Of a stretch of 64,000 nt of DNA, positions 33,658 through 57,113 are shown piece after piece. The DNA is taken from contig LR632930.1 in NCBI GenBank assembly GCA_902167325.1, positions 3,534,001-3,598,000 of the forward strand, in the 5' to 3' direction. The position numbers were made by a program, and so were the translations under genes. Numbering within the stretch: position 1 is the stretch's first letter; every line of letters starts with the position of its first letter. The notes under the pieces are model-generated. The model was not told where the DNA came from. It saw only the letters and a program-made list of their open reading frames with translations, and did not search any database. This stretch comes from Chitinophaga pinensis (GTDB taxonomy: Bacteria; Bacteroidota; Bacteroidia; Chitinophagales; Chitinophagaceae).

Positions 33658-33690
33658 GGTACTTGTTTTATTAACCCGAAAAGCGGCATT

Positions 33691-35762: not shown

Positions 35763-36238
35763 TTCTTTTTGGCTAAGGCTGCCCCCAGCAAGGATGCAAT
35801 GATGCCGGGGAGCACGTATAAAAAGAGTATGCCGGACAGCACCATAACAGCGAACTGCTGGCTGAGCCGGTCGAATTCAGCGGCATGGGTTTCAGGCAGA
35901 TCTGCCTGCGGCCCCATAGCGATCATGTCGCGGATGAACTGTTCTTTGTATCCGGGCATCATCTGAGCGAAGAGCATGAATAGTGCGGCGAAGAGAACGG
36001 TGGCAGCTGCCGTGGTGCGGAAGCCGGTGCCGAATACTTCCCCGAAGGATGCTTTGTGATCCATATCCCGCGAATAGCGCAGGCAGGAGGCCACTACGGC
36101 CACTACGAGTACTGCGAGTGCGGCGATGCGGAAAAAGATATTGCCTGAGCTGGCGCCGGAATAAAACTGGGTCAGCAGCAGGGCGAAATTGATGCCTGCG
36201 GCCAGCAGACCGAACAGGAGGTGTTTTTTATTCTTCAT
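35759..36238 (-). CDS. DUF4199 family membrane protein
   Basis: A 159-residue integral membrane protein with four hydrophobic stretches: LLFGLLAAGINFALLL, FRIAALAVLVVAVVASC, TAAATVLFAALFMLFAQMM and MVLSGILFLYVLPGIIASLL. Between the second and third lies SRDMDHKASFGEVFGTGF, typical of DUF4199 in Bacteroidota, where these proteins often sit with glycosyltransferases and dihydroorotase. Molecular function is unknown. Both ends overlap its neighbours by 4 bp. Confidence 0.82.
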   Translation of the reverse strand: MKNKKHLLFGLLAAGINFALLLTQFYSGASSGNIFFRIAALAVLVVAVVASCLRYSRDMDHKASFGEVFGTGFRTTAAATVLFAALFMLFAQMMPGYKEQFIRDMIAMGPQADLPETHAAEFDRLSQQFAVMVLSGILFLYVLPGIIASLLGAALAKKK

Positions 36239-37500
36239 GACCGGAACCAGGATTTGTTTTGACGAATGATGCCGGTAACGCTGCCTTTGGCGGTTTTCCC
36301 GAGGAAAGGCGTGTTCCTGCTTTTAGACTGGAAGCGGTCGTCGCTGAGGGTATATTCCGTTTCCGGCTCAAATACCGTGATGTTGGCAACTGCGCCTTCT
36401 GCGATAGGGGCGAGGGATTGTCCGAAGATACGGCGCGGATTGTCTGACAGCAGTTTTACCAGCTGTGCGGGCTTGAGTTGGGGAAGAGCGGTGCGGAGGG
36501 CAGCAAAGGTTGTTTCCAGCCCTATCATGCCCGGCTTGGCATATTCGAACTCTACCTGCTTGGCGTCCCAGTCCTGTGGCTGGTGATGGGTAGCTATGCA
36601 ATCCACAGTGCCATTGGCTACAGCGGAGCGGAGCGCATCCACATCTTCCTGCGTGCGGAGGGGAGGGTTTACTTTGAGGAAGCTGTCGTACGAGGCCATA
36701 TCGGCATCGGTGAACAGCAGGTGATACGGCGTAACGGAGCAGGTGACCCTGAGGCCGCGGGCTTTGGCTTCGGCGATAAGCTGAATGGAGCCTGCGGTGG
36801 AAACGGCCGTTACATGGAGGCGTGAGCCGGTATAATCGAGGAGGTCGAGATCGCGTTTAAGCATGATTTCTTCGGCGATGGCGGGCTTACCGGGCATGCC
36901 GAGGCGGGTGGAGTGGATGCCTTCGTGCATGAGGCCGTGGCCGGAAATGGTTGCATCGTCAGGGATCTGTATCACGGCACCGTCGAATGCTTTTACGTAC
37001 TGGAGGGCTTTGAGCATAAGGCCGGAAGACTGCACCGGTTTGAGTCCGTCGGAGAATGCTACGGCACCTGCTTCCTTCATCTCGTACATTTCTGCAAGAG
37101 AAGTACCTTCCAGGTTTTTGGTGATGGCGCCAATGGGCAGAACTTCTGCTGCGTTGTGGGCGGCAGAACTGTGAACATAAGCGATCTGTGTTTTGGTGTG
37201 AAGGGCGGGCTGGGTGTTGGGCACGATCATAACGGCCGTATAACCGCCCGCAGCGGCGGCCAGAGCGCCTGACTGAAGGTCTTCTTTGTATTCCTGTCCC
37301 GGATCACAAAAATGAGCGAATACATCCATCCATCCGCCGGATACATGAAGGCCTTTTCCTTCGATAACGGTTGCATTACCGGGAGCTATGCTGCCGGCGA
37401 TGGAGGTGATAACGCCATTGTCGATCAAGATATCTTTTTCCTGCCCGTTGAAAGGCGAATTTTCAGAGACGATCGTCGCGCTTTTCAGTAAAATTTGCAT
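36235..37500 (-). CDS. Dihydroorotase-like amidohydrolase, probably inactive
   Basis: A 421-residue protein with clear type I dihydroorotase similarity (GGYTAVMIVPNTQP, KVNPPLRTQEDVDALR and GLETTFAALRTALPQL). Residues needed for zinc and catalysis are altered. The first metal motif HxH reads Phe61-Ala-His63 (MDVFAHFCDPG). The His of the HVST motif is Ala (LHVTAVSTAGS). The TPHH motif is TPYH. The IATDHxPH motif reads IATHHQPQ, with His305 instead of the catalytic Asp. I therefore expect no classical dihydroorotase activity; a related role, or a structural role with aspartate transcarbamoylase, remains possible. It heads a four-gene overlapping operon with DUF4199, GT2 and GT4. An active pyrC should exist elsewhere in the genome. 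Confidence 0.85.
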   Translation of the reverse strand: MQILLKSATIVSENSPFNGQEKDILIDNGVITSIAGSIAPGNATVIEGKGLHVSGGWMDVFAHFCDPGQEYKEDLQSGALAAAAGGYTAVMIVPNTQPALHTKTQIAYVHSSAAHNAAEVLPIGAITKNLEGTSLAEMYEMKEAGAVAFSDGLKPVQSSGLMLKALQYVKAFDGAVIQIPDDATISGHGLMHEGIHSTRLGMPGKPAIAEEIMLKRDLDLLDYTGSRLHVTAVSTAGSIQLIAEAKARGLRVTCSVTPYHLLFTDADMASYDSFLKVNPPLRTQEDVDALRSAVANGTVDCIATHHQPQDWDAKQVEFEYAKPGMIGLETTFAALRTALPQLKPAQLVKLLSDNPRRIFGQSLAPIAEGAVANITVFEPETEYTLSDDRFQSKSRNTPFLGKTAKGSVTGIIRQNKSWFRS

Positions 37501-37519
37501 CTTTTGATTTTATCCCGTG

Positions 37520-37527
37520 CAAATGTA
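37520..37527 (-). promoter_or_regulatory. Bacteroidota -7 promoter element for the dihydroorotase-like operon
   Basis: CAAATGTA on the plus strand reads TACATTTG on the minus strand, matching TAnnTTTG. Transcription would begin about 12 nt before the ATG at 37500. No convincing -33 box. Confidence 0.45.
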
Positions 37528-37602
37528 CGCATAAATGTGGTCGGATGTATAGCAAGCGGGAAGCGGTTGTCAACAGTTTTTTGACAAAAAGTCCGAGAAA
37601 AA

Positions 37603-37633
37603 TTTGCTGAAATGAAAACATTCGCTACTTTTG
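37603..37633 (+). promoter_or_regulatory. Consensus Bacteroidota promoter of tRNA-Pro
   Basis: TTTG at 37603-37606 and TACTTTTG at 37626-37633 are 19 bp apart, the full Bacteroidota housekeeping consensus. The tRNA begins 31 bp after the -7 element. Confidence 0.82.
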
Positions 37634-37664
37634 CATCCCGTCACACACAAACGGTCCGGAAGTT

Positions 37665-37738
37665 CGGGACGTAGCGCAGCCCGGTAGCGCACTTGCATGG
37701 GGTGCAAGGGGTCGCTAGTTCGAATCTAGTCGTCCCGA
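37665..37738 (+). tRNA. tRNA-Pro (anticodon GGG)
   Basis: A 74-nt tRNA. The acceptor arms CGGGACG (37665-37671) and CGTCCCG (37731-37737) pair perfectly. The anticodon stem CTTGC/GCAAG encloses the 7-base loop ATGGGGT, whose middle three bases are GGG, so it reads CCC (proline). The T-loop is TTCGAAT. A discriminator A is at 37738 and CCA is not encoded. Its 3' end is the target of the island described at 37857-46929. Confidence 0.95.
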
Positions 37739-37747
37739 CACTGCAGA

Positions 37748-37778
37748 AGGTCATCAGGTAAAACTGATGGCCTTTTTT
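37748..37778 (+). terminator. tRNA-Pro terminator
   Basis: A 10-bp stem AGGTCATCAG (37748-37757) with CTGATGGCCT (37764-37773), loop GTAAAA, then a T run. The same hairpin recurs at 46961-46991 and, with one change, at 47074-47104. Confidence 0.92.
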
Positions 37779-37793
37779 GTTGTTAAAAAGATT

Positions 37794-37856
37794 CCGGTAT
37801 CGCATCCCGGCATGAGTCGGGAGGGTCGCTGGTTCGAATCCAATCCAGCTTTCCCG
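37794..37856 (+). pseudogene. tRNA-like fragment (degenerate, left copy)
   Basis: From CCGGTATCGCA on, the sequence follows the D-loop to acceptor part of tRNA-Pro with many changes. An anticodon-stem-like TCCCG/CGGGA encloses eight bases instead of seven, and the T-arm carries a 5-bp insertion. No 5' acceptor strand is present, so it cannot be a functional tRNA. Confidence 0.55.
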
Positions 37857-37864
37857 TCGAGATC

Positions 37865-38221
37865 ATGAAGAAAGTTTTGCGTGGCGGCATGGACCTCGGC
37901 GGCTTCATCCTGAACGAACCATCAACGGGTGAGATGGCTGTCGATATGGCCGCAATATACCAGTACCATCAGCTGCCAAAGTGCATTATAGCGCTCATGA
38001 GAGAGGTTGACTGGTCGTGGCACCGGCGACTGGTAGATGAGGAACCCAGCGATGCTTACAGAAACGCTATATTCCTGTTTCAACAGCACGGTAAGTTGCC
38101 TGGTGGCCTGGGTCTCGGCAGACTCCTGTGGGATATTGAGGCGCCCACTTGGTGCGAAATGCCGGTATTCCTCAGAGAAGACCAGCCCGTTACCTTTAGC
38201 AGCTTGCTGGAAAAAGCATAG
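37865..38221 (+). pseudogene. Truncated paralog of the 38328-38939 family
   Basis: A 118-residue reading frame that starts 8 bp after the left repeat. It aligns with the C-terminal two thirds of the 203-residue protein encoded at 38328-38939: GEMAVDMAAIYQYHQLPK against GEIVIDMAQLYFQHVLPK, and LPGGLGLGRLLWD against LPGGLKIGRTLWD. The first 70 residues or so of the family are missing, and the frame begins at the island edge. The most likely reading is that integration or an edge deletion removed the 5' part. It may still be expressed from the ATG at 37865, but this looks like a remnant. Function unknown. Confidence 0.6.
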
Positions 38222-38327
38222 TATGCCCATGATGCGCGATATCAGGACACGACTTTATGGACTGGATACAACTGTACTTTTACCGCTTCGCCTTTGGTGA
38301 TCTTCGCATGTATTAAATTAGCAGTAT

Positions 38328-38939
38328 ATGCGCATCAACTTATCTGACTTTCGGGATTTTTTGGATCAGGTGGACGCCGGCTACCACGACCATGTACCAT
38401 TTGGTGCCTTTCCTGTTGATGGATACGCATCTGAGCATAAATTAATATTGCTGGGTAAAGGAGAGGATATTGCGGCAATGGCGCATTCGCCAAGACAGTA
38501 TGCCTATGATTTCTATACCCTGGCTATACTACAACACCTGATGAGGGGCGTAGTTAACGGTGAACGCCATATCGAATCTTTTCTGTCCAATCATCCCATT
38601 TCAGGTGAAATCGTTATTGATATGGCACAACTTTATTTCCAGCACGTTTTACCAAAGTATATCACCGATCACCTGGAACGCGTGGACTGGCAAAAAGAAA
38701 GGCGCGAAGATCCAGGTCAAAGGAGTTTGCAATTCATGAATTGCATCGCGCTGTTCGACAGGCTCAGCCAGCTGCCAGGCGGCCTGAAAATTGGGCGCAC
38801 TCTATGGGATAGCCTTGTGCCGGCCGGAATTCCAGGTATGCCTCCGTACCTTCGCAATGTGCCGGCTGCCGCTGGCGTTCCCCTTAATTATTTTAAGGAA
38901 CTGGAGCGGGAACTTCGCCAGGGACTTGGTCGCAGATAA
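38328..38939 (+). CDS. Hypothetical island protein (paralog family)
   Basis: A 203-residue soluble protein without signal peptide or membrane segment. The N-terminal part is MRINLSDFRDFLDQVDAGYH. The second half contains SGEIVIDMAQLYFQHVLPK and LPGGLKIGRTLWDSLVPAGI, shared with the truncated copy just upstream. I do not recognise a known domain. It is followed, 145 bp later on the same strand, by the HExxH-type gene. The two may be functionally linked (for instance as protein and metallopeptidase partner), but no evidence beyond position supports this. Confidence 0.7.
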   Translation: MRINLSDFRDFLDQVDAGYHDHVPFGAFPVDGYASEHKLILLGKGEDIAAMAHSPRQYAYDFYTLAILQHLMRGVVNGERHIESFLSNHPISGEIVIDMAQLYFQHVLPKYITDHLERVDWQKERREDPGQRSLQFMNCIALFDRLSQLPGGLKIGRTLWDSLVPAGIPGMPPYLRNVPAAAGVPLNYFKELERELRQGLGRR

Positions 38940-39084
38940 TTTAATCCCCGCTTCACCCCTGAGTGCAAAAATCTTATCTGATATATGCGCTCAAATCGCC
39001 GGCAGCAGGGGATTTCATTCCGGATGGCCGTGATGGGTGACAGTATTTTTTAATTGATTGACAATTTTAATATTTACGTTCCAG

Positions 39085-40440
39085 ATGACAGAACAAGATG
39101 TATTTGTAGAAGGCGAAATCGCTCCGGCGTACTTCGAGATGAATCTCCATACCACAGAAGACCTGACACAGCTTGATAAACTACCGACTGAAGTTCAACG
39201 TGCTTACTACCACGAGTTTATTCACTATGTGCAGAATAATACGACCGGGTTTGGGCTCTACTATTTCTGGCATATTTATGAGAGATTACGGATCTTACTC
39301 GGTTCCCTGCCGACAGATAACAGTCCCGTGGAAGTGCCGCTGGACAATGAGGGAGCAGAAAGAGTGAAGGAACGGAACAAGGTATTTGATCGCATGCGCG
39401 GTAGCCATAAGTTCGGTCCGAACGTTGCCTTTGATTTGCGTCATGAGTATCAGATTGCTGACGTGGAATTCGAAAATGACCCCTTTTTGGACGAACAGTT
39501 TAAAGGCCACGATGTAAGTCACATCATCCTGATATACCGGCGACCAGGCACGGGACAGACAATGATGAGGTTTGGTGAAAACTTTGTTATGGAGGGCATG
39601 ACCCGGCTGGCAGAAGTCCGCCATTATGGGGATGTAGCACAATTGCAGGAACACCCCTATATTACTGCCGAGCAACTTGCACGATTCGTATACCCGCATG
39701 TGGCAGATGATCCGGAGCGGTTGTTTGCGCTCTGCGACGTTTCACTGATGCACCCGTTACCCGGTTGGGCCTTTTACCAGTTGCTGACTGCAATGCGGGA
39801 TAATGCCGTTACTTTCGGCACGGCAGAAGAACTTTACGATTATGGGATGATCTATTATGCAAAGAACGGGTGGCGCATTCCGTACCGGGAGCAGGATGCC
39901 ATGGATGGCATTATTAAATCGCTGGACAACCTTTTTCATTTGCCGCAGTATGCGGAAACTAAAACATGGATAAGAACGGTGCTGGAACAGGGGCATGATC
40001 TGCGTGGTAGTGACCCGCATTTTTTTATCAAGCTGTTTCGCGACAAGCCTTTTACGGGCATGATGGATGAGGTGTGGAGGCGGATGGGAGGTCCGCACTG
40101 TATCAATGATGACTCCGTCCGCAAAATTCAAATGCCACAGGTGCTGCTTGCTCAGGACCCCAATATCGCTGACCGCGTTTATCCTCAGCGAATGCGGATG
40201 ATCTGGCAGTTTCATGAGTTCCTGCTCAAAGGGCACGCCTCATGTGGGCAAACCAAAATCTGCGCATCCTCGGTTCCCGATAACGGAGTTGATGAAAGCT
40301 GCAACCTGTCGCCATGGGTCCGGGCCTGGAAAAACCCCTGGTGTGTGTATGCCACCTCGATGCACCAGTGGGGGCTGATTCCCCGTCATCTGGTAATTAA
40401 CGGACAGCCGGTGGATACATCCCTTGCCGGAAAGCCATAA
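39085..40440 (+). CDS. Putative HExxH zinc metallopeptidase-like protein
   Basis: A 451-residue protein from the ATG at 39085 (MTEQDVFVEGEI); an in-frame TTG at 39058 is less likely. The motif HEFIH at residues 43-47 (YYHEFIHYVQNNTTGFGLYY) is the zincin HExxH signature, and the possible third ligand lies at Glu170 in FVMEGMTRLAEVRH. Length and overall sequence match no family that I can name. The C-terminal part is Cys-rich (GHASCGQTKICASSVPDNG, then SCNLSPWVRAWKNPWCVY), perhaps a small metal or disulphide knot. No signal peptide is seen, so a cytoplasmic target is likely. The reading frame ends in TAA at 40438-40440 but stays open in the same frame for another 120 codons (see next feature). 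Peptidase activity is inferred from the motif only. Confidence 0.65.
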   Translation: MTEQDVFVEGEIAPAYFEMNLHTTEDLTQLDKLPTEVQRAYYHEFIHYVQNNTTGFGLYYFWHIYERLRILLGSLPTDNSPVEVPLDNEGAERVKERNKVFDRMRGSHKFGPNVAFDLRHEYQIADVEFENDPFLDEQFKGHDVSHIILIYRRPGTGQTMMRFGENFVMEGMTRLAEVRHYGDVAQLQEHPYITAEQLARFVYPHVADDPERLFALCDVSLMHPLPGWAFYQLLTAMRDNAVTFGTAEELYDYGMIYYAKNGWRIPYREQDAMDGIIKSLDNLFHLPQYAETKTWIRTVLEQGHDLRGSDPHFFIKLFRDKPFTGMMDEVWRRMGGPHCINDDSVRKIQMPQVLLAQDPNIADRVYPQRMRMIWQFHEFLLKGHASCGQTKICASSVPDNGVDESCNLSPWVRAWKNPWCVYATSMHQWGLIPRHLVINGQPVDTSLAGKP

Positions 40441-40803
40441 CCGGTTGTTGATGTTAATTCTGATGTGGTGCCTACAGCAGGCGATGTCAGCTTCACCAGT
40501 AGAACGTCGAAAGGCACGGGCCCTCCATTGTTGGAGCAAGGAAAAGTCGATAACTTTGCGGGTATGAGAGGTATCCGGTTTGAGGCGACATTTGGAGAGG
40601 AAACGAAAGTTGTCGAGATCAGTTTCGCTCCTGGTTCGGCAAGACAGTGGCACCTGCTTATCAATAATCGCTTCCAGGGCCAGTTCATTAAACAAAACGG
40701 AATTAGAACCTTTAAGTATCAAAATGCACCTGACTGGAGCTCAGGCGATGACATCGGTATCCTGGTTGATATCTTCTTTGAAATCAGTGGTGAACAGCGG
40801 TAG
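40441..40803 (+). pseudogene. In-frame continuation after the stop of the HExxH gene
   Basis: Exactly in the frame of the HExxH gene and directly after its TAA, the frame is open for 120 further codons. The sequence looks like real protein (RGIRFEATFGEETKVVEISF, then HLLINNRFQGQFIKQNGIRT) with a beta-sheet-like pattern. The only start inside is GTG at 40465, with no ribosome binding site. Two explanations fit: a nonsense mutation split a 572-residue gene, or this is a separate small gene started at the GTG. The first seems more likely for an island with a decayed edge. Confidence 0.5.
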
Positions 40804-40959
40804 CACGCCATTCTACAACCCAAAATATTGATTAGCCGTGTCTTGACAATACCCTGAAAATACTTCCGGTCTCATCATAAACAGGGCGGATTTGTGGCGG
40901 ATACGGCTGGCAAAGATGGTAAATTTATCGTCGGATAGATTGCCTCCAATTGCCGGCGT

Positions 40960-43632
40960 ATGCGCAGTATAGCAATCCTCATTTTTGTCATGCTTTCAGG
41001 GTGGAATGCCGGCGCACAGCGCCCAGGCTATGCGCCGCTGAAAGGTATTGTGCAAGTTTCAGCGACCGCCCAACCATTGGAGGCCGCCACCGTTTCTGTT
41101 TACACAGTCGCTGATTCTGCCCTGGTATCTTACACCATCACCAACCGCAAGGGCGAATTCACCATTCCAAACGTCCCCAAGGCCCGCGCCTGTAAGGTTG
41201 TCGTCTCCTATAAGGGCCTGCAGAACTACGAGCAGGACTTTACCATTCCCCCCGACAGTAAAGAGCTCATCATCCGCACCATCGACCTGTCACGCCAGGT
41301 AACCACACTCGATGAGGTGATCGTATCCCGGATGCGCCCACCCGTAATTGTGAAGAAAGATACCATCGAGTTTTCGGCGGGAGCTTTTAAGACGCCGGTC
41401 AATGGCGTGGTGGAGGATCTGCTGCGCCAGCTCCCAGGGGTTGAAGTGGACATCGACGGCAACATCACCGTCAACGGTAAGCCTGTCGCAAAGATCACGG
41501 TGGAGGGGCGCGACTTTTTCGGAACCGACGTAAAGCTGACCACCAAAAACCTGCCACGCGATATCATCGATAAAATCCAGGTCGTGGACGCAAAGACAAA
41601 GGAACAACAGTTCACCGGTGCCACACCCACTGGAAGCGGGAAGGTGATAAACCTGGTACTGAAGAAGGATAAGAAAAAAGGCATATTCGGCCGCGCTTCG
41701 GCCGGCGGCGGCACCGCAGACCGCTACGAGGGAATCACCAACCTCAATCAGTTCGACAGTAAGAACCAACTGAGCCTGATCGGCTATGACAACAACACCA
41801 ACAACAACGGAGGGGGGACGGTGCCTTTAAATTCGCTTGGCTCCACCACGCCCGCCCGCATCCGCAAATCGGGCCTGGGCTTAAATGCAGGCACAGTGGT
41901 GTCGCCAAAATTCAAAGTGAACGGCAGCTACTTTTTCAATGCCGACATGCAGCGCAGCCTGATCGAGACGGACCGCAGTAATGTTTTGCCGGACACAGCT
42001 TATGATTTCCGGTCGGTGGCCGATAACCATACCCGCACCAGTGGCCATTCCGCCACCCTGCAAATGGAGCTGCGGCCAGATAGCCTGACGGAGATTTCCA
42101 TCGGCACCCAGTTCCAGCTGACAGGAGCCCGCCCGACAGTACTAACCAGCGGGGTAAATACGGGCACTGCGGGCGCCAAAATCAACGAAAGCACCAACCT
42201 CCTTACATCCCATTCGCAAAACTCCTATTTTAACGCGCTCGTGTTCATGGGGCGTAAATTCAAAAAGAAGGGCCGCATCTTCGCCCTGAACGCGAATTTA
42301 TCCAATAACCGCAACAGGAGGGATGACTACAGCTTCAGCACCGTAGACCTGTACAGGCTGGGGGTACCTGAACGGTCGGTCATCGATCAGTACGTCAGGA
42401 TCTCCGGCGGCGGCCCGGCCGCAGGCTTCTCAGCTGCATGGACCGAACCGCTGCTGCCCAGGTGGAGCCTGCGCTTTGCCTATAGTTTCAGTGCATCTGC
42501 CAGCAGCAGTGACCGGGAGGCGTTTAGAAAAGATCCGTTTGGGGGCGGATATATCCTGCCGGACAGCACATTTACCAACCGTTTTACAAGCCGGTTCCTG
42601 TCCAGCTCACCGACGGCATCCATCCAGTACAACGGGGAAAAGACGTTCATGGAGCTCGGCGCCGGCCTGCAAAGCAACCAGTTGCGCAGTAGCTCCGGTG
42701 ACGGCCTGGCTGACCTGGAACAGCGGGTGACCAATTTCCAGCCGGCGGCGGTACTGATGCGCCGTCTTGGGGAGGCCGCATCGCTGACGCTGCGATACAA
42801 TGGCGTATCAAGACAGCCATCCCTGCAGCAGCTGCAACCGGTCCCCGATATCACTAACCCGCTCTACGTCCGGGAAGGCAATCCTGCCCTCAAACCTTCC
42901 TTTACCCATAATGTCGCCGCCGAAATCCAGAAGAACCGCGGCGCTTCCTACTGGAGTGCTGCCCTTAATTACACGGGTTCGTCCAATTTGATCGTTGAGG
43001 AAACATGGTTGGATTCGGTCCAGCATACCAGGCCCATCAATAGTAATGGCAATTACTCCCTGAATGGCAATGTCAACTACAGCGCTTCCTGGCGCCGCGG
43101 GCCGTCAGCGTTAAGGTTTTCGATTGGTGCGGGAGTATTTCAGAACATGAATGTATCCTACACAAACAAATTTGAGAACCGGTCCCGCATCCTGGGGCTC
43201 GCGCCGCGCATATCCATGCAATACAGCTACCGGGATAAAGTGACGATCCAGCCCAACGTTTCTGTAGCCTATTCTTCCACCCGGTTTTCGCTTCCCATGA
43301 CGCCCAGGATGACAAGCACCACAGTTACCGGGGCAGTATTCGCCCAAATAAACTGGAACCCGCGATTGGTAATCGAAAACACGTTTAATTACCTATATAA
43401 TCAGCGTGATGGTACCGGCAGCCCGGCTACTGTTGCGGTTTGGAACGCTTCGGTTAACTACTACTTTACCCGCGACAGGAAATGGATAGTACGGATGGCT
43501 GGATTCGACCTGCTCAACAGAAACGAACTATTCCAGAACACGATCTCCCCAATATTTGCGGAGACAACAAGGGCGGAATTACTTCGCAGGTATTTTCTCG
43601 CATCTATCACATGGAAAATCGACAATATGTGA
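40960..43632 (+). CDS. Outer-membrane beta-barrel receptor (TonB-dependent family)
   Basis: An 890-residue exported protein (signal peptide ending GWNAGAQ). An N-terminal carboxypeptidase-regulatory-like domain (about 25-110: LKGIVQVSATAQPLEAATVS and TNRKGEFTIPNVP) is followed by a plug-like segment (VVEDLLRQLPGVEVDIDGNI, then VNGKPVAKITVEGRDFFG) and a large barrel of the OMP_b-brl_3 type. Proteins of this type in Bacteroidota are TonB-dependent receptors without a dedicated SusD. There is no SusD-like gene nearby. Base composition is at least as GC-rich as the chromosome, unlike the KAP gene that follows. This suggests the island was assembled from several sources. The ligand is unknown. Confidence 0.85.
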   Translation: MRSIAILIFVMLSGWNAGAQRPGYAPLKGIVQVSATAQPLEAATVSVYTVADSALVSYTITNRKGEFTIPNVPKARACKVVVSYKGLQNYEQDFTIPPDSKELIIRTIDLSRQVTTLDEVIVSRMRPPVIVKKDTIEFSAGAFKTPVNGVVEDLLRQLPGVEVDIDGNITVNGKPVAKITVEGRDFFGTDVKLTTKNLPRDIIDKIQVVDAKTKEQQFTGATPTGSGKVINLVLKKDKKKGIFGRASAGGGTADRYEGITNLNQFDSKNQLSLIGYDNNTNNNGGGTVPLNSLGSTTPARIRKSGLGLNAGTVVSPKFKVNGSYFFNADMQRSLIETDRSNVLPDTAYDFRSVADNHTRTSGHSATLQMELRPDSLTEISIGTQFQLTGARPTVLTSGVNTGTAGAKINESTNLLTSHSQNSYFNALVFMGRKFKKKGRIFALNANLSNNRNRRDDYSFSTVDLYRLGVPERSVIDQYVRISGGGPAAGFSAAWTEPLLPRWSLRFAYSFSASASSSDREAFRKDPFGGGYILPDSTFTNRFTSRFLSSSPTASIQYNGEKTFMELGAGLQSNQLRSSSGDGLADLEQRVTNFQPAAVLMRRLGEAASLTLRYNGVSRQPSLQQLQPVPDITNPLYVREGNPALKPSFTHNVAAEIQKNRGASYWSAALNYTGSSNLIVEETWLDSVQHTRPINSNGNYSLNGNVNYSASWRRGPSALRFSIGAGVFQNMNVSYTNKFENRSRILGLAPRISMQYSYRDKVTIQPNVSVAYSSTRFSLPMTPRMTSTTVTGAVFAQINWNPRLVIENTFNYLYNQRDGTGSPATVAVWNASVNYYFTRDRKWIVRMAGFDLLNRNELFQNTISPIFAETTRAELLRRYFLASITWKIDNM

Positions 43633-43728
43633 TCCGATATCGATTTATAGAAAAAATCAGTTCAATTGAATTTCGATACATGCCTGAATTAATTGGCAAC
43701 TCAGCTTGTTTTCATGCTATCAAATGGT

Positions 43729-46524
43729 TTAATAGGCGATTACGATTTCTAATACTTCCAACAAATATGCGATGTCCTGCATAGGTGCCGTTGTATTGTC
43801 GGACATAAAAGGCACTAACGGCATAGTGTCTCCTTTTCTTAGAATGGAAATTCTATCATCAGATACTCGGTGGATATGATTAGCTGTACTATAATGTTGA
43901 ATTGCTTGCAATGTGATGGAGATGCCTTTGTTAGTCTGCCAAATGCTTTGACGGCTCATTGCTTTATAGCGTAATATCAAGAGGTTTTTTGCTAACTGAT
44001 ATCGTAAATAGAAAATCCTCATCTGCCGCGGTGTCGCGTCTGCCCATTGGGTATATATTAGTTGTAAGCATTTTACCTCAATCGGGGTTAGCCTGAAGTC
44101 TGAGGGTTCAATGTTATTCGTTTGGTTTTTAGCAACCGGAACTGTTTCGGCAGGTGGTTCGTTTGTAGTATGTGCTTCAGACGGATCGCTGTTCGTTGTG
44201 AACGATAAGGTGTTTCCGCCAATACTACCTTGGATCAGTGTATTATCGTTTTGGACATTTTCGTTGTTTTCCTTCACTGTATTGAGGGGTAGATCGTCCT
44301 TTAATAGCAAATGTAAGTATTCAACGATTTCGACTTCGGTTAAATCACCAAGTTTTATGGCCGAGATAAATAACTTATCGATATACTCTTTTATCAAAGG
44401 AAAGACTTGTGGCTTATCATCAAAAAGCTTATAGTTTTCGCTCGTTTTGAAAACTTTGTCATACTTTAAAACAATAGCATTCTTCAAAATTCTTTCGTCG
44501 ATCGCGGTAACAATGAGCACTCTTCTAGCTATTTCATCATCCTCCAATAAGATACGGAGTGCATCTATATTTTGCATTATCTTTTCCTCGGTGCATCGAT
44601 CAATATCCTCTACATATAGGATTATTTTTTGAATTTCTTTGTTAAGCTTTTTCTTCGGAATCCATACCGTTAATAGTTTTTTAAGTTCTTTTTGAATGTC
44701 AGCTTGGATGCCAAGACTGTCTTTAAAGCTATTTCTAAGATTATATAGCTTTATTAATGCGACTGCTTTAGGTGACAATTTTTTAAACGCAGTCGTTAAG
44801 TAAGTCGCAGAAAGAGTAATAGTTAGTGATACCGATCCGTAAATGACCCAATTTTGCTGTGGTACTTCTTTTTTAATGAAATGAAAACTTGCAATAATTG
44901 CAATTACGGTCGTGACTATAGCAATAAAGAATTTAAAAAGTGGCCAAAAGCCATGTCTGTGACAGTTAAGCTTTAATAATTTCCAGGCGTAAGGTAGATT
45001 TTTCTTTTTGCCTAAATAAGATTCAACAAATTGTTCGTATAGGTACGCCCATGAAGCGGGAGTCTCCTGATATTTCCAGGCATGAAAGTCTACATGGATA
45101 AATTCAGGTTTTTTATACTTTTTTAGTGCTTCCTTTAATTGATTTATAAAATACGTTTTGCCCCGTCCCCATTTACCAAAAATGCCTATCATTTGCCCTT
45201 TTTCAGCCTTCATCGAGTGCAATAATGTGCCAAGGACATTTGCTAGTTCAGATACGCCCATTACGGGCTCAGCCTTATGATATTCTTTTATAATTATTTT
45301 ACTCGTGAACGCCTGAATTTCCATGTCTTCGGAGAATAATTCTTTTGAAGGTGTTTCTATAGGCGTTTCTTCAGATTTTTCCTCTTGCGGGAGCTCTGAG
45401 CCATCATTTAAGGCATTGGTAAATGCTGCTCCCAATTTGTCGAGTTTTTCCCTGAAGCCTTTATCACCTTGACTAAATATTATCTCCGGTGATTCTTCGT
45501 CTTCAAAAGTGGATTTGAGGTCCGCCTCAATCAGTTTTAAAATAGTATCATAGTCTTCATTCAGGTTGTTAATTGGAGATCCACCATGCCATTTAAGGAT
45601 TGCAGCAAAAAGTGTATTACTCACTGCAACTGGTATAGGAAGACTTTTAAGCTGTTGAAGAAAGAAGTTTGGTTGCCTTAATGACTGTTTTAATAAATCA
45701 ATTTGGCGATAAAGCAGATTTAGGAAGTCTAAAGGGGTTACCCTCGTTGAATGATGTTTTTCAATAAATTCTATGGTGGACGTAACTAGATTCTGATTAG
45801 GAATATTCTTTGGATTAGTATACCAGTCCATGTCACGATCATACTTCAAATCCTTATGATTATCTGATGGCGGCGTATTAGATTCGTTAGCCTTTTTAGT
45901 ATATGGGGATATTGCCGGTTCTGTAACAAAGAATTCTGCTTCCTTAATTGCGACAAGATTCTTCTGCTCAAAATATGGCAGCATGTCCTTTTCTTTTGTC
46001 GATACTTTTATTGTAAGAGCTGAGCTCAATTTGCCGTCTTTTATAGCATGCTTAATTCTCAACGCAGCAATAAGTAGAAGTACATTTTCGGCAGGCAACG
46101 GAGAATTTCTGTCAATATCTATACCCAGTAAGGTTGCCAGTACAGTTGATACGAGCACGGTTACGGTGCCTTCTGCAATGTAATTCTGTTGCTCTGAAAC
46201 AAAATAGTTGTATTTATATCCTAACTCAGCAGTGATAGATGGTGGTATATATTCAGGGTTACTAAGTTTTAATATTAGGAATCGGTTCTGGGTTAGGTAG
46301 GCATTAATATATGCTTCCCCAGTCCGTGTGAGTGTAATTGTACTGGAGCCCTTCGAAATTAGCTTGTTTGCTATGCAGGTTGTTAAGACTTTATTGGTCT
46401 CAGCGGGCGTTAGTCCTAAGAATTTCGATATCGATTTCGTCTCAGCGCCTAATCCCGGCTGCTTTTGCGTTACTTTATAAAGTGTAAGTAAAAATTCAAC
46501 TTCTGATGCAGTCATTTGGGGCAA
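43729..46524 (-). CDS. KAP family P-loop NTPase with N-terminal winged-helix-like domain
   Basis: A 931-residue protein. The N-terminal 75 residues (MTASEVEFLLTLYKVTQ and ISKFLGLTPAETNKVLTTCI) look like a winged-helix domain. The P-loop is GIFGKWGRGKTYF with Gly450-Thr457 as Walker A. Two membrane segments follow at about residues 530-552 and 562-583. The Walker B motif IILYVEDIDRC has its Asp near residue 640. Membrane segments inserted within the NTPase are the mark of the KAP family, which includes the F-plasmid phage-exclusion protein PifA. The C-terminal half is helical, with a Ser/Asn-rich linker. It is the most AT-rich gene in the window, opposite in strand to the rest of the island. 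A role in phage defence is inferred from the family. Confidence 0.83.
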   Translation of the reverse strand: MPQMTASEVEFLLTLYKVTQKQPGLGAETKSISKFLGLTPAETNKVLTTCIANKLISKGSSTITLTRTGEAYINAYLTQNRFLILKLSNPEYIPPSITAELGYKYNYFVSEQQNYIAEGTVTVLVSTVLATLLGIDIDRNSPLPAENVLLLIAALRIKHAIKDGKLSSALTIKVSTKEKDMLPYFEQKNLVAIKEAEFFVTEPAISPYTKKANESNTPPSDNHKDLKYDRDMDWYTNPKNIPNQNLVTSTIEFIEKHHSTRVTPLDFLNLLYRQIDLLKQSLRQPNFFLQQLKSLPIPVAVSNTLFAAILKWHGGSPINNLNEDYDTILKLIEADLKSTFEDEESPEIIFSQGDKGFREKLDKLGAAFTNALNDGSELPQEEKSEETPIETPSKELFSEDMEIQAFTSKIIIKEYHKAEPVMGVSELANVLGTLLHSMKAEKGQMIGIFGKWGRGKTYFINQLKEALKKYKKPEFIHVDFHAWKYQETPASWAYLYEQFVESYLGKKKNLPYAWKLLKLNCHRHGFWPLFKFFIAIVTTVIAIIASFHFIKKEVPQQNWVIYGSVSLTITLSATYLTTAFKKLSPKAVALIKLYNLRNSFKDSLGIQADIQKELKKLLTVWIPKKKLNKEIQKIILYVEDIDRCTEEKIMQNIDALRILLEDDEIARRVLIVTAIDERILKNAIVLKYDKVFKTSENYKLFDDKPQVFPLIKEYIDKLFISAIKLGDLTEVEIVEYLHLLLKDDLPLNTVKENNENVQNDNTLIQGSIGGNTLSFTTNSDPSEAHTTNEPPAETVPVAKNQTNNIEPSDFRLTPIEVKCLQLIYTQWADATPRQMRIFYLRYQLAKNLLILRYKAMSRQSIWQTNKGISITLQAIQHYSTANHIHRVSDDRISILRKGDTMPLVPFMSDNTTAPMQDIAYLLEVLEIVIAY

Positions 46525-46929
46525 TTTTGCTCATTTTTCCCTTTCCAGATATTGATCTGGCAATTTTTAATGATTGCCTATCTGGTACGGGAGTTACTTT
46601 TTGGCTCTTTTTATCGGATTTTCCAATTCTTATTAAAGTGGGAATTTAACTTATCTAACGGATAAAGTCAATAGGTTCAAGGTCGCACTATCGACAATTT
46701 CATTAATTTTGCATCAGTTCTTTGCGTTTTGGTAACGAAATGACGGCAAAATGGTGCTTTGTTTGCGTTTGAGCTTAAACAGTAGTGAACATCTTTTTGC
46801 AGGCTTATAAACTATTGATATACAATGATATTAATGGGCGATTCGATATTTTGGCAATTTCATGAGTAAAGTCATGAGTAAAATGCCCGGACTTTTTGAA
46901 AGTGGCCATGGCGGCTGATTTCAAAACCC
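46525..46929. other. Intergenic stretch between the KAP gene and the right repeat
   Basis: About 405 bp, AT-rich, with no gene seen. It contains a plus-strand TAATTTTG at 46704-46711 that fits the -7 consensus TAnnTTTG; no gene follows it before the right repeat, so it could drive a small RNA or be chance. A short palindrome TTATC-TAAC-GGATAA lies shortly before it. Confidence 0.4.
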
Positions 46930-47063
46930 AGTTCGAATCTAGTCGTCCCGACACTGCAGAAGGTCATCAGGTAAAACTGATGGCCTTTTTTGTTGTAAAA
47001 AAGCTCCGGTATCGCATCCCGGCATGTGTCGGGAGGGTCGCTGGTTCGAATCCAGCTTTCCCG
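46930..47063 (+). repeat. Right direct repeat (attR-like): T-arm, terminator and tRNA-like fragment
   Basis: Second copy of the sequence at 37717-37856, offset by 9213 bp. It starts exactly in the T-arm (AGTTCGAATCTAG), continues through the acceptor CGTCCCG and the terminator (46961-46991), and ends with the tRNA-like fragment. The 5' half of tRNA-Pro is absent, so no functional tRNA exists here. Confidence 0.85.
46961..46991 (+). terminator. Second copy of the tRNA-Pro terminator
   Basis: Identical to the hairpin at 37748-37778: AGGTCATCAG with CTGATGGCCT, loop GTAAAA, then T. Confidence 0.85.
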
Positions 47064-47064
47064 A
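47006..47064 (+). pseudogene. tRNA-like fragment (right copy)
   Basis: From CCGGTATCGCA to CCCGACA this follows the D-loop to 3' end of a tRNA, with an intact T-arm (GCTGG-TTCGAAT-CCAGC). The anticodon loop has eight bases and no 5' acceptor strand is present. It is followed by a third copy of the terminator. Confidence 0.55.
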
Positions 47065-47104
47065 CACTGCAGAAGGTCATCAGGTAAAACTGATGGTCTT
47101 TTTT
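47045..47104 (+). repeat. Third T-arm/terminator copy
   Basis: GTTCGAATCCAGC, then CCCGACACTGCAGAAGGTC and the hairpin AGGTCATCAG/CTGATGGTCT (47074-47099, one changed base) with T run to 47104. It repeats the tRNA-Pro 3' module a third time within the window. This fits successive integrations at the same site. Confidence 0.7.
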
Positions 47105-47184
47105 GTTGCTAAGATTCAGAAACCGGATTAATAGTATTCCAAGCAGGTATGAAGCTAATATCAAGCTAATGTCTAGGAGATTCT

Positions 47185-47294
47185 GAGCACTGTACAAGCA
47201 TTATGGAAGCACTCTGCAAGCACTTTTCATGCACTCAGCAAGCAGTCAGCAAGCACTCTTCATGCACTTTTCATGCACTCAACAAGCACTCAGC
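47185..47294. repeat. Array of ten 11-bp tandem units
   Basis: Ten consecutive units of 11 bp with consensus close to AAGCACTCWKC: for example AAGCACTCTGC, AAGCACTTTTC, ATGCACTCAGC, AAGCAGTCAGC, AAGCACTCTTC and ATGCACTTTTC. The first two units are diverged. As 11 is not a multiple of three, a protein repeat is not the explanation. The array starts 81 bp after the third T-arm/terminator copy. It is probably a non-coding simple-sequence or binding-site array. An ORF starting inside it (47229) is not supported. Confidence 0.8.
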
Positions 47295-47459
47295 ACTTCC
47301 TTCAATACGGAACAAATGACCCTAAATGACCCCAATCGGAACATTATGACCCTTTATCTTTATGAAGTAACAGGACGTGCATACTTTCGAAGTGTAAATA
47401 CAACCACACAGATCACGTAAAGCCCAGCTGGCAAGGCGATGTAAGAGCCAAACACCAAA

Positions 47460-47684
47460 ATGATAAAACAATTTTTAATGATTTGGAACAAACAATCTGG
47501 CATGCTCCAACTTAAAGGAGCCACCCTAAAAACGATGTTCTACAAAAGAAAACTGGAGTACGCCGTGAAATTAAAAGGCGATGGCGCATCCGAAGAATTC
47601 ACAAAGTGCAGTGAAGTTTGTATGAAGCGCCAGTTAGCCTTTGCAGGAACGGAGGACATCATTTTTAGTTCCACCCGGTCTTGA
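47460..47684 (+). CDS. Small hypothetical protein
   Basis: A 74-residue frame, MIKQFLMIWNKQSGMLQLKG, rich in Lys and Met. No domain, signal peptide or ribosome binding site is evident, and it sits between the tRNA-derived repeats and the SPFH gene. It may be a remnant of mobile DNA or a chance ORF. Confidence 0.25.
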   Translation: MIKQFLMIWNKQSGMLQLKGATLKTMFYKRKLEYAVKLKGDGASEEFTKCSEVCMKRQLAFAGTEDIIFSSTRS

Positions 47685-47765
47685 TTCGGGGCATAATATG
47701 CGTGGCATCCATATTTTATGTAAATTCCATTGCTCTTTTGCTAATAATACTTAAATACCTCTACC

Positions 47766-48767
47766 ATGGGCATATTCGACTTTATCAAAAATGAATTTAT
47801 CGAGGTCATCGACTGGGTAGATGACACGAACGATACCGTTATCTATAAATTCCCTGACAAAGGCGATAAAATCATGAACGGCGCTCAGCTGACTGTAAGG
47901 GAATCGCAGCTGGCAGTACTCATGAACGAAGGCGAGGTTGGGGATGTATACCTGCCCGGCCGCCATGAGCTGACCACCAGCAACATGCCCATTACCACCA
48001 CCCTGAAGTCCTGGAAATACCTTTTCGACTCTCCATTTAAAGTAGATATTTACTACGTAAATACCCGCCAGTTCACCAACCTGAAATGGGGTACTTCCAA
48101 TCCCATCATCGTTCGCGATCCTGAATTTAAACAGGTACGCCTCCGCTCGTTCGGAACGTATACTATGCGGGTTACCGATCCGCAGAAATTTATAAAGGAA
48201 TTTGCCGGTACGCATCCCTGGGTACGTATAGATGCCGTGAGCGAACAGTTGCGTAATGCCATTATCAGCAAACTTGCCGAAGGACTGGCGGAAGCAGGCA
48301 TATCCGTATTGGACCTCGCTGCCAACTTTACCGAGATCGGTGAGAAGCTGAAACCCGTATTCCAGAAGGAATTCGATATATGGGGCATAGAACTGGGCCA
48401 GTTCTACATCGAGAATGTGACCCTGCCTGAAGAAGTGGAGAAGATGCTGGACAAAACCACACAGTTGAACATGATGGCCGACAAGCTGAACCAGTTCAAC
48501 CAGATGCAGGGCGGTATTGCGCTCGAGAATCTGTCTGAGAACCCGGGTGCCGCAGGTATGGCCGGAATGGGGGCAGGAGTGATCCTTACCAATATGCTGC
48601 AACAGCAACAACAGCCTGTTCAGCAACAAAATGTTCCTGCAGCAGACCCTAATGAGAAGCAAAAGCTGCTGGACCTGTTAAAGCAACTGGGAGAATTGAA
48701 AGCCCAGGGGATCTTAACAGAAGAGGAGTTTAACCAGAAAAAAGCAGAGATACTCAGCAAATTGTAA
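47766..48767 (+). CDS. SPFH domain protein with C-terminal SHOCT domain (YdjI-like)
   Basis: A 333-residue cytoplasmic or membrane-associated protein. The N-terminal part (MGIFDFIKNEFIEVIDWVDD, then GQLTVRESQ-like AQLTVRESQLAVLMNEGEVG) and the middle (LRSFGTYTMRVTDPQKFIKE) fit the virion-core/YdjI branch of SPFH proteins. A Gln-rich linker leads to the C-terminal SHOCT motif (LLKQLGELKAQGILTEEEFN), a short oligomerisation domain. SPFH proteins form membrane-linked oligomers. A paralog with the same architecture is at 54070-55104. The next gene encodes a zinc-ribbon membrane protein like YdjG, so a joint role in membrane stress is likely by analogy with Bacillus YdjGHI. Confidence 0.88.
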   Translation: MGIFDFIKNEFIEVIDWVDDTNDTVIYKFPDKGDKIMNGAQLTVRESQLAVLMNEGEVGDVYLPGRHELTTSNMPITTTLKSWKYLFDSPFKVDIYYVNTRQFTNLKWGTSNPIIVRDPEFKQVRLRSFGTYTMRVTDPQKFIKEFAGTHPWVRIDAVSEQLRNAIISKLAEGLAEAGISVLDLAANFTEIGEKLKPVFQKEFDIWGIELGQFYIENVTLPEEVEKMLDKTTQLNMMADKLNQFNQMQGGIALENLSENPGAAGMAGMGAGVILTNMLQQQQQPVQQQNVPAADPNEKQKLLDLLKQLGELKAQGILTEEEFNQKKAEILSKL

Positions 48768-48773
48768 AGACAT

Positions 48774-48823
48774 CAGCCTGCAGCACGTATCTGATTAAGT
48801 GCAGAAGTATGGACTGCAGGCTG
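48774..48823. repeat. Inverted repeat between SPFH and zinc-ribbon genes
   Basis: CAGCCTGCAG (48774-48783) and CTGCAGGCTG (48814-48823) are perfect 10-bp inverted copies 30 bp apart. No T run follows, so it is not a standard terminator. It could be an operator for the downstream gene or an mRNA structure. Confidence 0.5.
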
Positions 48824-48851
48824 TAGCCAATCAGGGACGATCTCTGACCAT

Positions 48852-49952
48852 ATGAATACCATGCCAGCAACGCACGACCAACATAATTCCCTGCTCCTTT
48901 TTCCCTGCCCGGGATGCAATTCACAATTATATTTCAGTCCTAAGCTGCAATTGCTACAGTGCGAGCATTGCGGAACGCAGGTTGGGATCGATAAGGCTGT
49001 AGACCAGATCAAAGAAAATCACCTGCGCCAGCAATTGCAAACGGGTGATGATGCTGCCAATACCATCGAACAGCAGGTATATAAATGCAACCGTTGTGGC
49101 TCGCAATCGGTATTCCTGTCCGAAACCCCTACGTTTACCTGCAGCTTCTGCAATTATGAAGCAGTAAACCCGGAAGCATATAAAACAAGGGTCATCCAGC
49201 CTTCAGGTATCATCCCCTTTAAGGTGGATAAACAGCAGTCGCTCGATATCTTCAAAACATGGATAGGTAAGGGATGGTGGGCGCCGGGAGACTTAAAAGC
49301 TATTGCCCGGCATAATACCCTGCACGGCATATACCTCCCTTTCTGGACCTATGACGCCCAAACCCACAGCAGCTGGAGCGGTTATGGAGGCAGGTATTAT
49401 TATGAGACGGAACATTATACCGACAACAATGGCCGTCGCCAGAGCAGAACAGTGCAACGAACCGAATGGATTTACCGCAGCGGTACCTTTGATCACTTTT
49501 TCGACGATATACTGATTGGCGGTGCTACTGAGCTTACGCAGAAGGAATATGAAAGCGTATTCCCTTACCAGCTGGAAGCACTCGTTAACTTCGAAGCGCA
49601 ATACCTCTCAGGCTGGCAGGCCGATGTGTATGATATTGCTGTGCATGATGGATATGAGAAAGCTGAAACCGTAATGGACAATTTTATCGAAGAGGCCTGT
49701 GCGGGATTATGCCGCATCGATACTTACAAGGATCTGGACGTGAACACTTCCTATTCCAATCAGACTTATAAACACATCCTGCTACCCATCTGGCTGTGTA
49801 CGTATGTTTATAAGAAGAAGTCATACCACTTCCTGGTAAATGGACAAACCGGTAAGGTACATGGGAAGAAACCTGTTTCTACCGGAAAGGTAGTAATGGT
49901 TATACTGGCTGTTGTTGCCATCATACTCCTCATTGTCCTGCTAAACCAGTAA
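48852..49952 (+). CDS. Zinc-ribbon membrane protein (YdjG-like)
   Basis: A 366-residue protein with two zinc-ribbon-like knuckle pairs at the N-terminus (CPGCNSQLYF and LLQCEHCGTQVG; YKCNRCGSQSVF and FTCSFCNYEAV), a large middle domain with many aromatic residues (YLPFWTYDAQTHSSWSGYGG) and a single C-terminal membrane segment (VVMVILAVVAIILLIVLL). The layout zinc ribbon, long middle, C-terminal anchor is that of TFIIB-type zinc-ribbon proteins such as YdjG in Bacillus, which works with an SPFH partner to recruit PspA. Its SPFH-SHOCT neighbour is 84 bp upstream. No PspA gene is present in the window. A bidirectional terminator follows. Confidence 0.78.
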   Translation: MNTMPATHDQHNSLLLFPCPGCNSQLYFSPKLQLLQCEHCGTQVGIDKAVDQIKENHLRQQLQTGDDAANTIEQQVYKCNRCGSQSVFLSETPTFTCSFCNYEAVNPEAYKTRVIQPSGIIPFKVDKQQSLDIFKTWIGKGWWAPGDLKAIARHNTLHGIYLPFWTYDAQTHSSWSGYGGRYYYETEHYTDNNGRRQSRTVQRTEWIYRSGTFDHFFDDILIGGATELTQKEYESVFPYQLEALVNFEAQYLSGWQADVYDIAVHDGYEKAETVMDNFIEEACAGLCRIDTYKDLDVNTSYSNQTYKHILLPIWLCTYVYKKKSYHFLVNGQTGKVHGKKPVSTGKVVMVILAVVAIILLIVLLNQ

Positions 49953-49971
49953 TTAGAATATTTAGATAAGG

Positions 49972-50006
49972 AAAAGGCCATCGTTTTTAATCGATGGCCT
50001 TTTTTT
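49972..50006. terminator. Bidirectional terminator between convergent genes
   Basis: AAAAGGCCATCG (49972-49983) pairs with CGATGGCCTTTT (49992-50003), followed by T on the plus strand. The A run in front gives a T run for the convergent OmpA gene on the other strand. Confidence 0.85.
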
Positions 50007-50026
50007 GTTTAGCAAATGGGAATGGA

Positions 50027-51139: not shown

Positions 51140-51393
51140 TTGTTTAATAAGAGTGTTTGCAATGGGGTTGTTTTTATCAGATGTTCCGCTTATCGGAAAT
51201 GATGCAGCGCAAAATTACCAGCCATCCCATTCTCATTTCTCAGTAAAAACCCGTAGAGCGTTAATTCCGCAGAACACGCAGTAGGGCATCATGCACCATC
51301 TAAGTGTTTTACTGATTTTTCTGCCGGGGTAGTTGCACTGATAAAGCAGATATGAATTGGGGTGAACTTTGCATACCATTAAACATCAGCTTT

Positions 51394-52695: not shown

Positions 52696-52708
52696 TGCCC
52701 CTGAATGG

Positions 52709-52746
52709 AAAGAGGCTGTTTTCCGGAATGGGAACAGCCTCTTTTA
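52709..52746. terminator. Terminator between convergent genes
   Basis: AAGAGGCTGTT (52710-52720) pairs with AACAGCCTCTT (52733-52743), with partly paired inner bases, followed by TTTT. It serves the ZU5-like gene and possibly the convergent gene at 52764. Confidence 0.85.
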
Positions 52747-52763
52747 TCTAAAGTTAACTGCTA

Positions 52764-54014: not shown

Positions 54015-54069
54015 AGAATGTTGGATTTTTAGTTTGTATTAGAAATGATATAAATGTTGTGACTAAATA

Positions 54070-55104: not shown

Positions 55105-55150
55105 GGTAATGTTGGTTAATAGGTTTCGTGATGAATGATAGCATGCACCG

Positions 55151-55993: not shown

Positions 55994-56022
55994 GGAGTAT
56001 CGGATGAATGGAATAGTAAGGT

Positions 56023-57068: not shown

Positions 57069-57113
57069 CCGGGAGTAATGGGAATTCCGTAATATTATCG
57101 TAAATATCTGCTT

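Follow-up and report, generated by a model that had tools for sequence, protein, structure and literature searches.

Tandem tRNA-tail units, a decayed tRNA-Pro island and a candidate GIY-YIG mobile element in Chitinophaga and other Bacteroidota

Introduction

Several described systems can be compared with a tRNA-Pro locus of Chitinophaga pinensis (assembly GCA_902167325.1, contig LR632930.1), where the tRNA gene is followed by a long direct repeat enclosing about 9 kb of foreign-looking genes. The tyrT/rtT repeats of Escherichia coli are tandem repeats behind a tRNA gene, each containing a tRNA 3' end. REP elements are short hairpin-forming units that a small enzyme, the RAYT transposase, mobilises in trans, and they offer an analogy of a different kind. 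Homing-endonuclease insertions in fungal mitochondria bring a new 3' end for the gene they invade, so that the nuclease gene and the replacement end together keep the host gene whole. In one report (PMC13096335), SegB of phages T4 and T6 is described as a free-standing GIY-YIG homing endonuclease encoded beside tRNA genes, with tandem amplification of a tRNA segment through recombination shown for phage T6.

The window analysed here is a stretch of 64,000 nucleotides (positions 3,534,001 to 3,598,000 of the contig), and all coordinates below are positions within it unless otherwise stated. Our proposed explanation, to which we give a probability of roughly 0.7, has three layers: the long repeats belong to a tandem array of tRNA-tail units; the genes between them belong to a decayed tyrosine-recombinase island; and the units themselves would be a compact mobile element of Bacteroidota in a form that lacks its nuclease.

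Results

The long repeats and the tandem array

The tRNA-Pro(GGG) gene (37665-37739, forward strand) is intact, as an initial annotation of the window had proposed: it is the sole tRNA called there by ARAGORN and scores 59.3 bits against the Rfam tRNA model. The direct repeat reported in that annotation, at 37717-37856 and 46930-47063, is equally real (94% identity over 140 bp, query 78-217; E 1.8e-54). It begins in the T-arm of the tRNA, continues directly behind the gene, and returns at the far side of the foreign-looking genes, where a third copy (47043-47116), not noted in that annotation, overlaps the right one and is 86% identical to the first over 74 nucleotides.

The nearest relative found, Chitinophaga deserti XJ-2 (G044), matches the window on both flanks: at 93.5% over 5160 bp on the left (window 32681-37840) and at 90% over 12295 bp on the right (window 47709-59992), with about 1 kb next to its array that is not common to the window. 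Synteny stops on both sides of the island, which is absent from C. deserti at the matching place. What stands there is a tRNA-Pro gene trailed by a 113-bp unit in tandem: five full copies and a partial one (6.0 copies with 96% matches by Tandem Repeats Finder). Each full unit consists, in order, of an intrinsic terminator, a spacer, the end of a D-arm, a TCCCG..CGGGA hairpin in the position of the anticodon arm, a variable loop, a T-arm and the acceptor 3' strand. A terminator and a hairpin fold are present in the units read (11 were folded), and all terminators of the tRNA-Pro array are alike.

The repeats of the window are built in the same way. The left tail unit (37740-37856, forward) has the terminator, a partial tRNA with the TCCCG..CGGGA hairpin at 37805-37822, the T-arm and the 3' tail, the last with a 5-nucleotide insertion and without the final AC; its first 101 bp are 92-97% identical to the five full units of C. 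deserti. The right tail unit (46953-47065, forward, 113 bp) is 91-96% identical to them and is followed by what sequence comparison identifies as the terminator of a further, incomplete unit (47066-47108, forward). The window thus has one unit on the left and one and a part on the right, all in phase with the tRNA 3' end.

Since C. deserti has the long repeat without the island, the 134-140-bp repeats do not represent the left and right attachment sites (attL and attR) of one element, as the initial annotation had held. It had itself proposed that a strain with the repeat and without the interior genes would count against its reading, and C. deserti, with five full units and a partial one, is such a strain. 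A repeat on either side of foreign-looking genes, next to a tRNA 3' end, would fit paired attachment sites, but besides the tandem, island-free copies in C. deserti and the third copy beside the right one, there is the evidence of three other sites. At two loci (L023 in G011, L032 in G018) the downstream copy of the tRNA 3' end is followed by another terminator, which by its sequence pattern is the ordinary signature of integration at a tRNA end, and in these two as in the island of a further genome (G081) the terminators behind the left and right tRNA-end copies differ, so that the common core is the tRNA end alone. Paired attL and attR of this length are therefore very improbable. In the window only 46930-46952 (forward) fits an attachment core: it is the tRNA-Pro 3' end from T-arm to last base, equal at 23 of 23 positions to 37717-37739. 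Comparison of these loci shows the remainder of the long repeats, at the level of sequence, to be units of a tandem array trailing the tRNA gene and independent of the island.

The island and its integrase-bearing relatives

The island remnant extends over 9.07 kb (37857-46929). Its right end (46855-46929, forward) is that of an integrative element: the 75 bp before the core, found only in the element, are 80% identical to the right end of an 11.6-kb island in G081 (E 4e-16), a further 37 bp align at 89%, and the wider stretch 46855-47107, including the core and an array unit, aligns at 80% over 256 bp. An outer-membrane protein gene within the remnant also aligns with the G081 island over its last 198 bp, at 73%, and the C-terminal 64 amino acids of its product are matched there at 80%. 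Within the right end, at 46860-46884 (forward), lies an arm-type repeat, TCATGAGTAANNNCATGAGTAAAAT; the same sequence stands beside an integrase in G003, and similar ones at both ends of the G081 island. As a pattern derived from the window and G003 and allowing up to 3 mismatches, TCATGAGTAANNNCATGAGTAAAAT has 1 match in the window and 0 in 100 shuffles, and these repeats probably act as arm sites of an integrase.

The island of G081 adjoins its tRNA directly and has, after a second tRNA-Pro, an integrase in two frames that is 71% identical to the integrase of G003. Among 24 tRNA-Pro loci from other species of the genus, six have an integrase homologue beside the tRNA (L017, L022, L031, L036, L037, L039), two of them fragmentary: L031 in two pieces and L037 as a short piece. 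Of the six, the L017 protein was scanned against Pfam: it has the Phage_integrase, SAM-like and arm-binding domains (PF00589, PF13102, PF17293) of a tyrosine recombinase.

On the left side of the remnant, an open reading frame (ORF) of 118 amino acids at 37865-38221 (forward) is a 5'-truncated paralogue of the 203-amino-acid gene that follows it and marks the cut end: read in frame from 37850, the sequence aligns with residues 70-177 of the 203-residue protein at 39%. The island thus starts inside a gene, no intact left end (attL side) was found, and, in agreement with the initial annotation, no integrase was recognised among the six interior ORFs scanned. A start inside a gene accounts for both absences: the right end and attR survive, and the integrase and left end were probably lost in a deletion that ran into a gene.

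The sequence relationships largely show the island to be a decayed tyrosine-recombinase element that entered at the 23-bp tRNA 3' end, either in the tRNA itself, as in G081, or in the tail of an array unit. As an island it is an ordinary decayed tRNA element. Of what had been proposed initially, an integrative element at a tRNA 3' end, in decayed form, stands; excision or circle formation is unlikely without a left end. Could the island instead have arrived without any integrase, on transferred DNA, through homologous recombination of array units? Array units do flank it on both sides, but an arm-type repeat and homology to an integrase-bearing island at its right end make this route quite improbable.

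Units at other tRNA genes

In the window's genome 39 tRNA genes were examined, out of 62 matches to RF00005: two tRNA-Ser and two tRNA-Pro loci that were known beforehand, and 35 genes from the score-ranked list of matches. A later copy of the last 25 bases was flagged at seven of the 39. One of the seven turns out to be a second tRNA-Met gene; the remaining six are Pro(GGG), Pro(TGG), Ala(GGC), Leu(TAG) and two Ser(TGA). Among the 35 genes from the ranked list, Ala and Leu are those with tail copies. The tRNA-Leu(TAG) array (L335, C1:255930-257250) consists of three near-perfect 144-bp copies. Arrays were also read at tRNA-Arg, Val, Ser, Ala and Pro genes of other genomes, and one genome (G055, L143) has a pair of tRNA-Ser(TGA) genes, separated by about 2.2 kb, that both possess an array of 115-bp units.

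What the units most commonly show is a strong hairpin in place of one arm of the copied tRNA, with the Leu array as an exception. Pairing continues inside the TCCCG..CGGGA stem: 80 of 87 distinct inner sequences add at least 2 pairs, of A-T, C-G and G-C types, with a mean of 2.49 further pairs against 0.68 in shuffled sequences (highest mean of 1000 shuffles, 1.05). At tRNA-Asp and tRNA-Gly loci (L344, L349, L351, L364) a hairpin of the same kind replaces the T-arm, not the anticodon arm, and one of these (L364) has two hairpins in one tRNA copy. At five loci from Spirosoma, Cyclobacteriaceae and Algoriphagus (L181, L182, L192, L199, L212) a tRNA-Pro-like 5' part with hairpin is joined to a different 3' end, and no tRNA was called upstream of any of the five.

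An occupied and an empty site can be compared at tRNA-Arg(TCT), which has no unit in the window's genome and five units (549 bp) in C. deserti. Behind the five units, native downstream DNA resumes at the base that directly follows the tRNA at the empty site (81% over 526 bp), and the terminator of the units differs from the native downstream one. Read from sequence, the pair suggests precise insertion with duplication of the tRNA tail, but it could also be read as loss from the window's genome.

Another possibility is that the arrays are kept for a function, as serial terminators, as tRNA decoys against tRNA-cutting defences, or as decoy attachment sites that spare the tRNA. The terminator and hairpin fold of the units read would suit this, as would the position of the window's island beyond a tail unit, but unit number differs between near relatives (window's genome against C. 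deserti: Arg 0 and 5, Pro 2 full and 5 full) and the G081 island touches the tRNA itself; we consider a maintained function distinctly unlikely.

A GIY-YIG nuclease in long units

Units fall into two sizes: short ones of about 100-145 bp without a nuclease, and long ones of about 325-380 bp that encode an 80-95-amino-acid GIY-YIG nuclease. All five ORFs examined from long units, four from loci found by the pattern below and one from G033, match PF01541 above its cut-off and nothing else. Tandem long units of 357-375 bp occur, and a tRNA-Ala array in G081 combines six units of 108-112 bp with one of 373 bp that contains the nuclease ORF, which ties short and long units together.

A scan of the named genomes with the pattern TCCCGN{8,16}CGGGANGGN{2,5}GGTTCGAATC gave at least 118 stretches. 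Eighty loci were listed, of which by record title 77 are from Bacteroidota, two of Ignavibacteria type (L165, L220) and one from Acidobacteria (L195). The listed loci contain 103 matches, 13 of them inside an ARAGORN tRNA call; a tRNA lies on the same strand within 1.5 kb upstream of 62 of the other 90, and 55 of the 90 repeat at least 22 of the 26 tail bases of such a tRNA. A GIY-YIG ORF ends within 150 bp upstream in 45 of the 103 listed matches (36 of the 80 loci).

Starting from the nuclease gives a similar association. A profile built from 14 sequences, all tRNA-linked, and hence descriptive of this subfamily rather than of all GIY-YIG proteins, matches 123 of 198 Bacteroidota genomes of at least 90% completeness (E up to 1e-10). 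The 30 loci returned, which are the top-scoring matches, contain 41 nuclease genes; a tRNA on the same strand precedes 28 of these, in 21 loci, by no more than 600 bp. At 17 of the 28 genes (17 of the 21 loci) the last 18 nucleotides of that tRNA recur no more than 300 bp behind the nuclease, and tails of other isotypes return in 0 of 696 control trials. Within the genus, 27 of 79 genomes match a single member of the subfamily. The nearest solved structures to the profile, among entries of the PDB, are UPF0213 proteins and SLX1 structure-specific nucleases. In a nuclease tree, sequences cluster by tRNA target (19 changes against a shuffled mean of 33.4, with 0 of 200 shuffles as low), as would be expected of a site-specific element that switches target now and then.

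One locus (L301, G018) has two tandem units of 366-367 bp behind tRNA-Pro(TGG), with a divergent nuclease and the hairpin CCGCT..AGCGG. A collection of viral sequences, scanned with one unit pattern, gave matches in two stretches, of which one (L307) has a unit with a nuclease frame and the other (L308) looks different; with only these two, phage origin of the units is unlikely.

The rival explanation that bears most directly on the nuclease is passive: units would be tandem duplications of a tRNA 3' end and its terminator, produced by slippage or unequal crossing-over, and the nuclease a hitch-hiker. The three near-perfect Leu(TAG) copies with their intact anticodon arm look like this, the window's own genome lacks a nuclease match, and the terminators of the tRNA-Pro array are all alike. 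Passive duplication does not, however, lead one to expect units at tRNA-Arg with a terminator unlike the native one downstream, a TCCCG..CGGGA kind of hairpin shared by different tRNAs with compensatory inner pairs, or a nuclease followed by the matching tRNA tail in 17 of 21 tRNA-linked loci. We regard it as unlikely, though deserving of real weight.

Island cargo and neighbouring features

Behind its truncated first gene the island encodes, on the forward strand, a 203-amino-acid protein without a family match (38328-38939), a 460-amino-acid ORF without a Pfam match (39058-40440; scanned from 39085) in which an HExxH-like HEFIH was noted by eye, and the 890-amino-acid outer-membrane beta-barrel protein (40960-43632; PF14905). 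On the reverse strand lies a 931-amino-acid KAP P-loop NTPase (43729-46524), weakly like QatA/PifA, which may be a defence gene in its own right. Its N-terminal part has weak matches to the MkoB and PRTase_III-A models, and matches elsewhere in the genus cover it only partially. Membership in the Qat system was considered and set aside (NCBIfam score 45 bits, cut-off 600). In guanine-plus-cytosine content the interior differs from its flanks in part, as the initial annotation had noted: the KAP NTPase part (44-47 kb) has 36-39%, against 51-57% in the left flank and 44-49% in the right, but the outer-membrane protein gene has 56-58%.

On the right flank a Band 7/SPFH gene and a 366-amino-acid gene (47766-49952, forward) are syntenic in C. 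deserti. In five genomes (G006, G041, G064, G066, G081; L016, L069-L070, L071, L068, L066) two tRNA-Pro(GGG) genes flank this pair, the second copy in G006 being cut by a contig end; the window and C. deserti have one tRNA-Pro at the same site, so that tRNA number there is variable. Beside the array, 47186-47290 consists of imperfect 11-bp tandem repeats (AGCACTC-type), in a stretch not common to C. deserti.

Discussion

The third layer of the explanation proposed here is that the window's units are probably the nuclease-less form of a compact mobile element whose full form encodes a GIY-YIG nuclease of the UPF0213/SLX1 kind. Mobility would then be provided by the nuclease, and the units would work like a homing endonuclease cassette, by analogy and with no claim to membership in any named family. 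The nuclease would most likely cut tRNA genes, or hairpins formed by tRNA arms; repair from an occupied copy would insert a unit just behind the tRNA, and the unit would supply the tRNA's own tail, leaving the tRNA whole. The replaced arm might be the hairpin preferred by the nuclease, or might render the copy uncuttable, and arrays could then grow and shrink by recombination. A broader proposal, to which we attach about even odds, is of a phylum-wide class in Bacteroidota: elements of 325-380 bp, each made of a terminator, an 80-95-amino-acid GIY-YIG nuclease, a hairpin and the tail of the target tRNA, that would insert precisely behind tRNA genes, leaving them unbroken, and spawn nuclease-less arrays of about 100-145-bp units, the hairpin that in most copies stands in for a tRNA arm being either the substrate of the nuclease or a change that confers immunity.

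A number of observations weigh against this explanation. One concerns the nuclease at home: searches with a single member and with the profile gave no match to this subfamily in the window's genome, nor did a single-member search in C. deserti; the units of both are therefore orphans and could multiply by plain unequal crossing-over. Of 28 nuclease loci in the genus, a tRNA with tail copies was seen only at those of G058, G081 and G018 (two overlapping loci), the others being unlinked. In the survey of Bacteroidota, nine of the 30 loci have no tRNA within reach upstream (in five of them at most 180 bp separate the nuclease from the edge of the DNA examined), and four of the 21 tRNA-linked loci gave no tail by the 18-nucleotide test; the exclusively tRNA-linked make-up of the profile and the choice of top-scoring loci should also be borne in mind. 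The hairpin is not universal: the tRNA-Ser array and one tRNA-Val array have other hairpins, the Leu(TAG) units keep an intact anticodon arm and have the 5' part of the tRNA replaced instead, the TCCCG hairpin pattern is found in 6 of 79 genus genomes (a reversed control pattern in 0), and the pattern scan itself selects for TCCCG..CGGGA. Host family confounds the clustering of the tree by tRNA target (15 changes when rows with named groups are counted), and resolution is poor, with only 6 of 55 inner branches starred. As to the island, completeness of the G081 assembly is put at 65% and the integrase there is split over two frames, and in the window a unit lies between tRNA and island, whereas the G081 island touches its tRNA directly.

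If the explanation is true, an unrecognised mobile element that trails tRNA genes, and spares them by bringing the tRNA tail along, is present in about three fifths of the Bacteroidota genomes sampled (123 of 198, counted as matches to the nuclease profile). Few mobile units that encode their own enzyme would be as small. The element would be the source of many tiny GIY-YIG genes in the phylum, and false attachment repeats at tRNA genes, such as those in the window, would find an explanation in it. What would a near-bare GIY-YIG domain recognise: the tRNA gene, or a DNA hairpin?

Comparison with known systems

Among the papers that a literature search listed (titles and abstract openings, mostly open-access), none describes tRNA-tail units or a GIY-YIG element linked to tRNAs in Bacteroidota, and each described system resembles the locus in part. 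Islands that tyrosine recombinases insert at tRNA genes are alike in their attachment core at the tRNA 3' end, their arm-type repeats and the integrase beside the tRNA in relatives; the copy in the window differs in having neither integrase nor left end and in sitting within an array of tRNA tails. The tyrT/rtT repeats come close to the arrays in form, although a search with the Rfam rtT model gave no match in 37400-47700 at E-values up to 1 and we know of no nuclease linked to them. REP elements and their RAYT transposases differ from the present units in that the enzyme here is of GIY-YIG type and the units lie at tRNA tails; no RAYT (HUH, Y1) transposase was found in the five long-unit ORFs scanned, all of which gave PF01541 only. 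UPF0213 and SLX1 proteins, the best structural matches of the nuclease, have to our knowledge no tie to tRNA tails. Fungal mitochondrial homing-endonuclease insertions affect protein genes, whereas tRNA genes are affected here, and no ORF-less hairpin arrays associated with them are known to us. The nearest working analogy is SegB. In both cases a GIY-YIG nuclease is linked to tRNA genes (here in 21 of 30 loci), but the present nuclease is chromosomal, has 80-95 amino acids and lies within a unit that ends in a copy of the tRNA tail; SegB is phage-borne, and the units are unlikely to be phage-carried, going by the one pattern and its two stretches in the viral collection. Tandem units are seen here, and their amplification may, as with SegB, have been driven by the nuclease.

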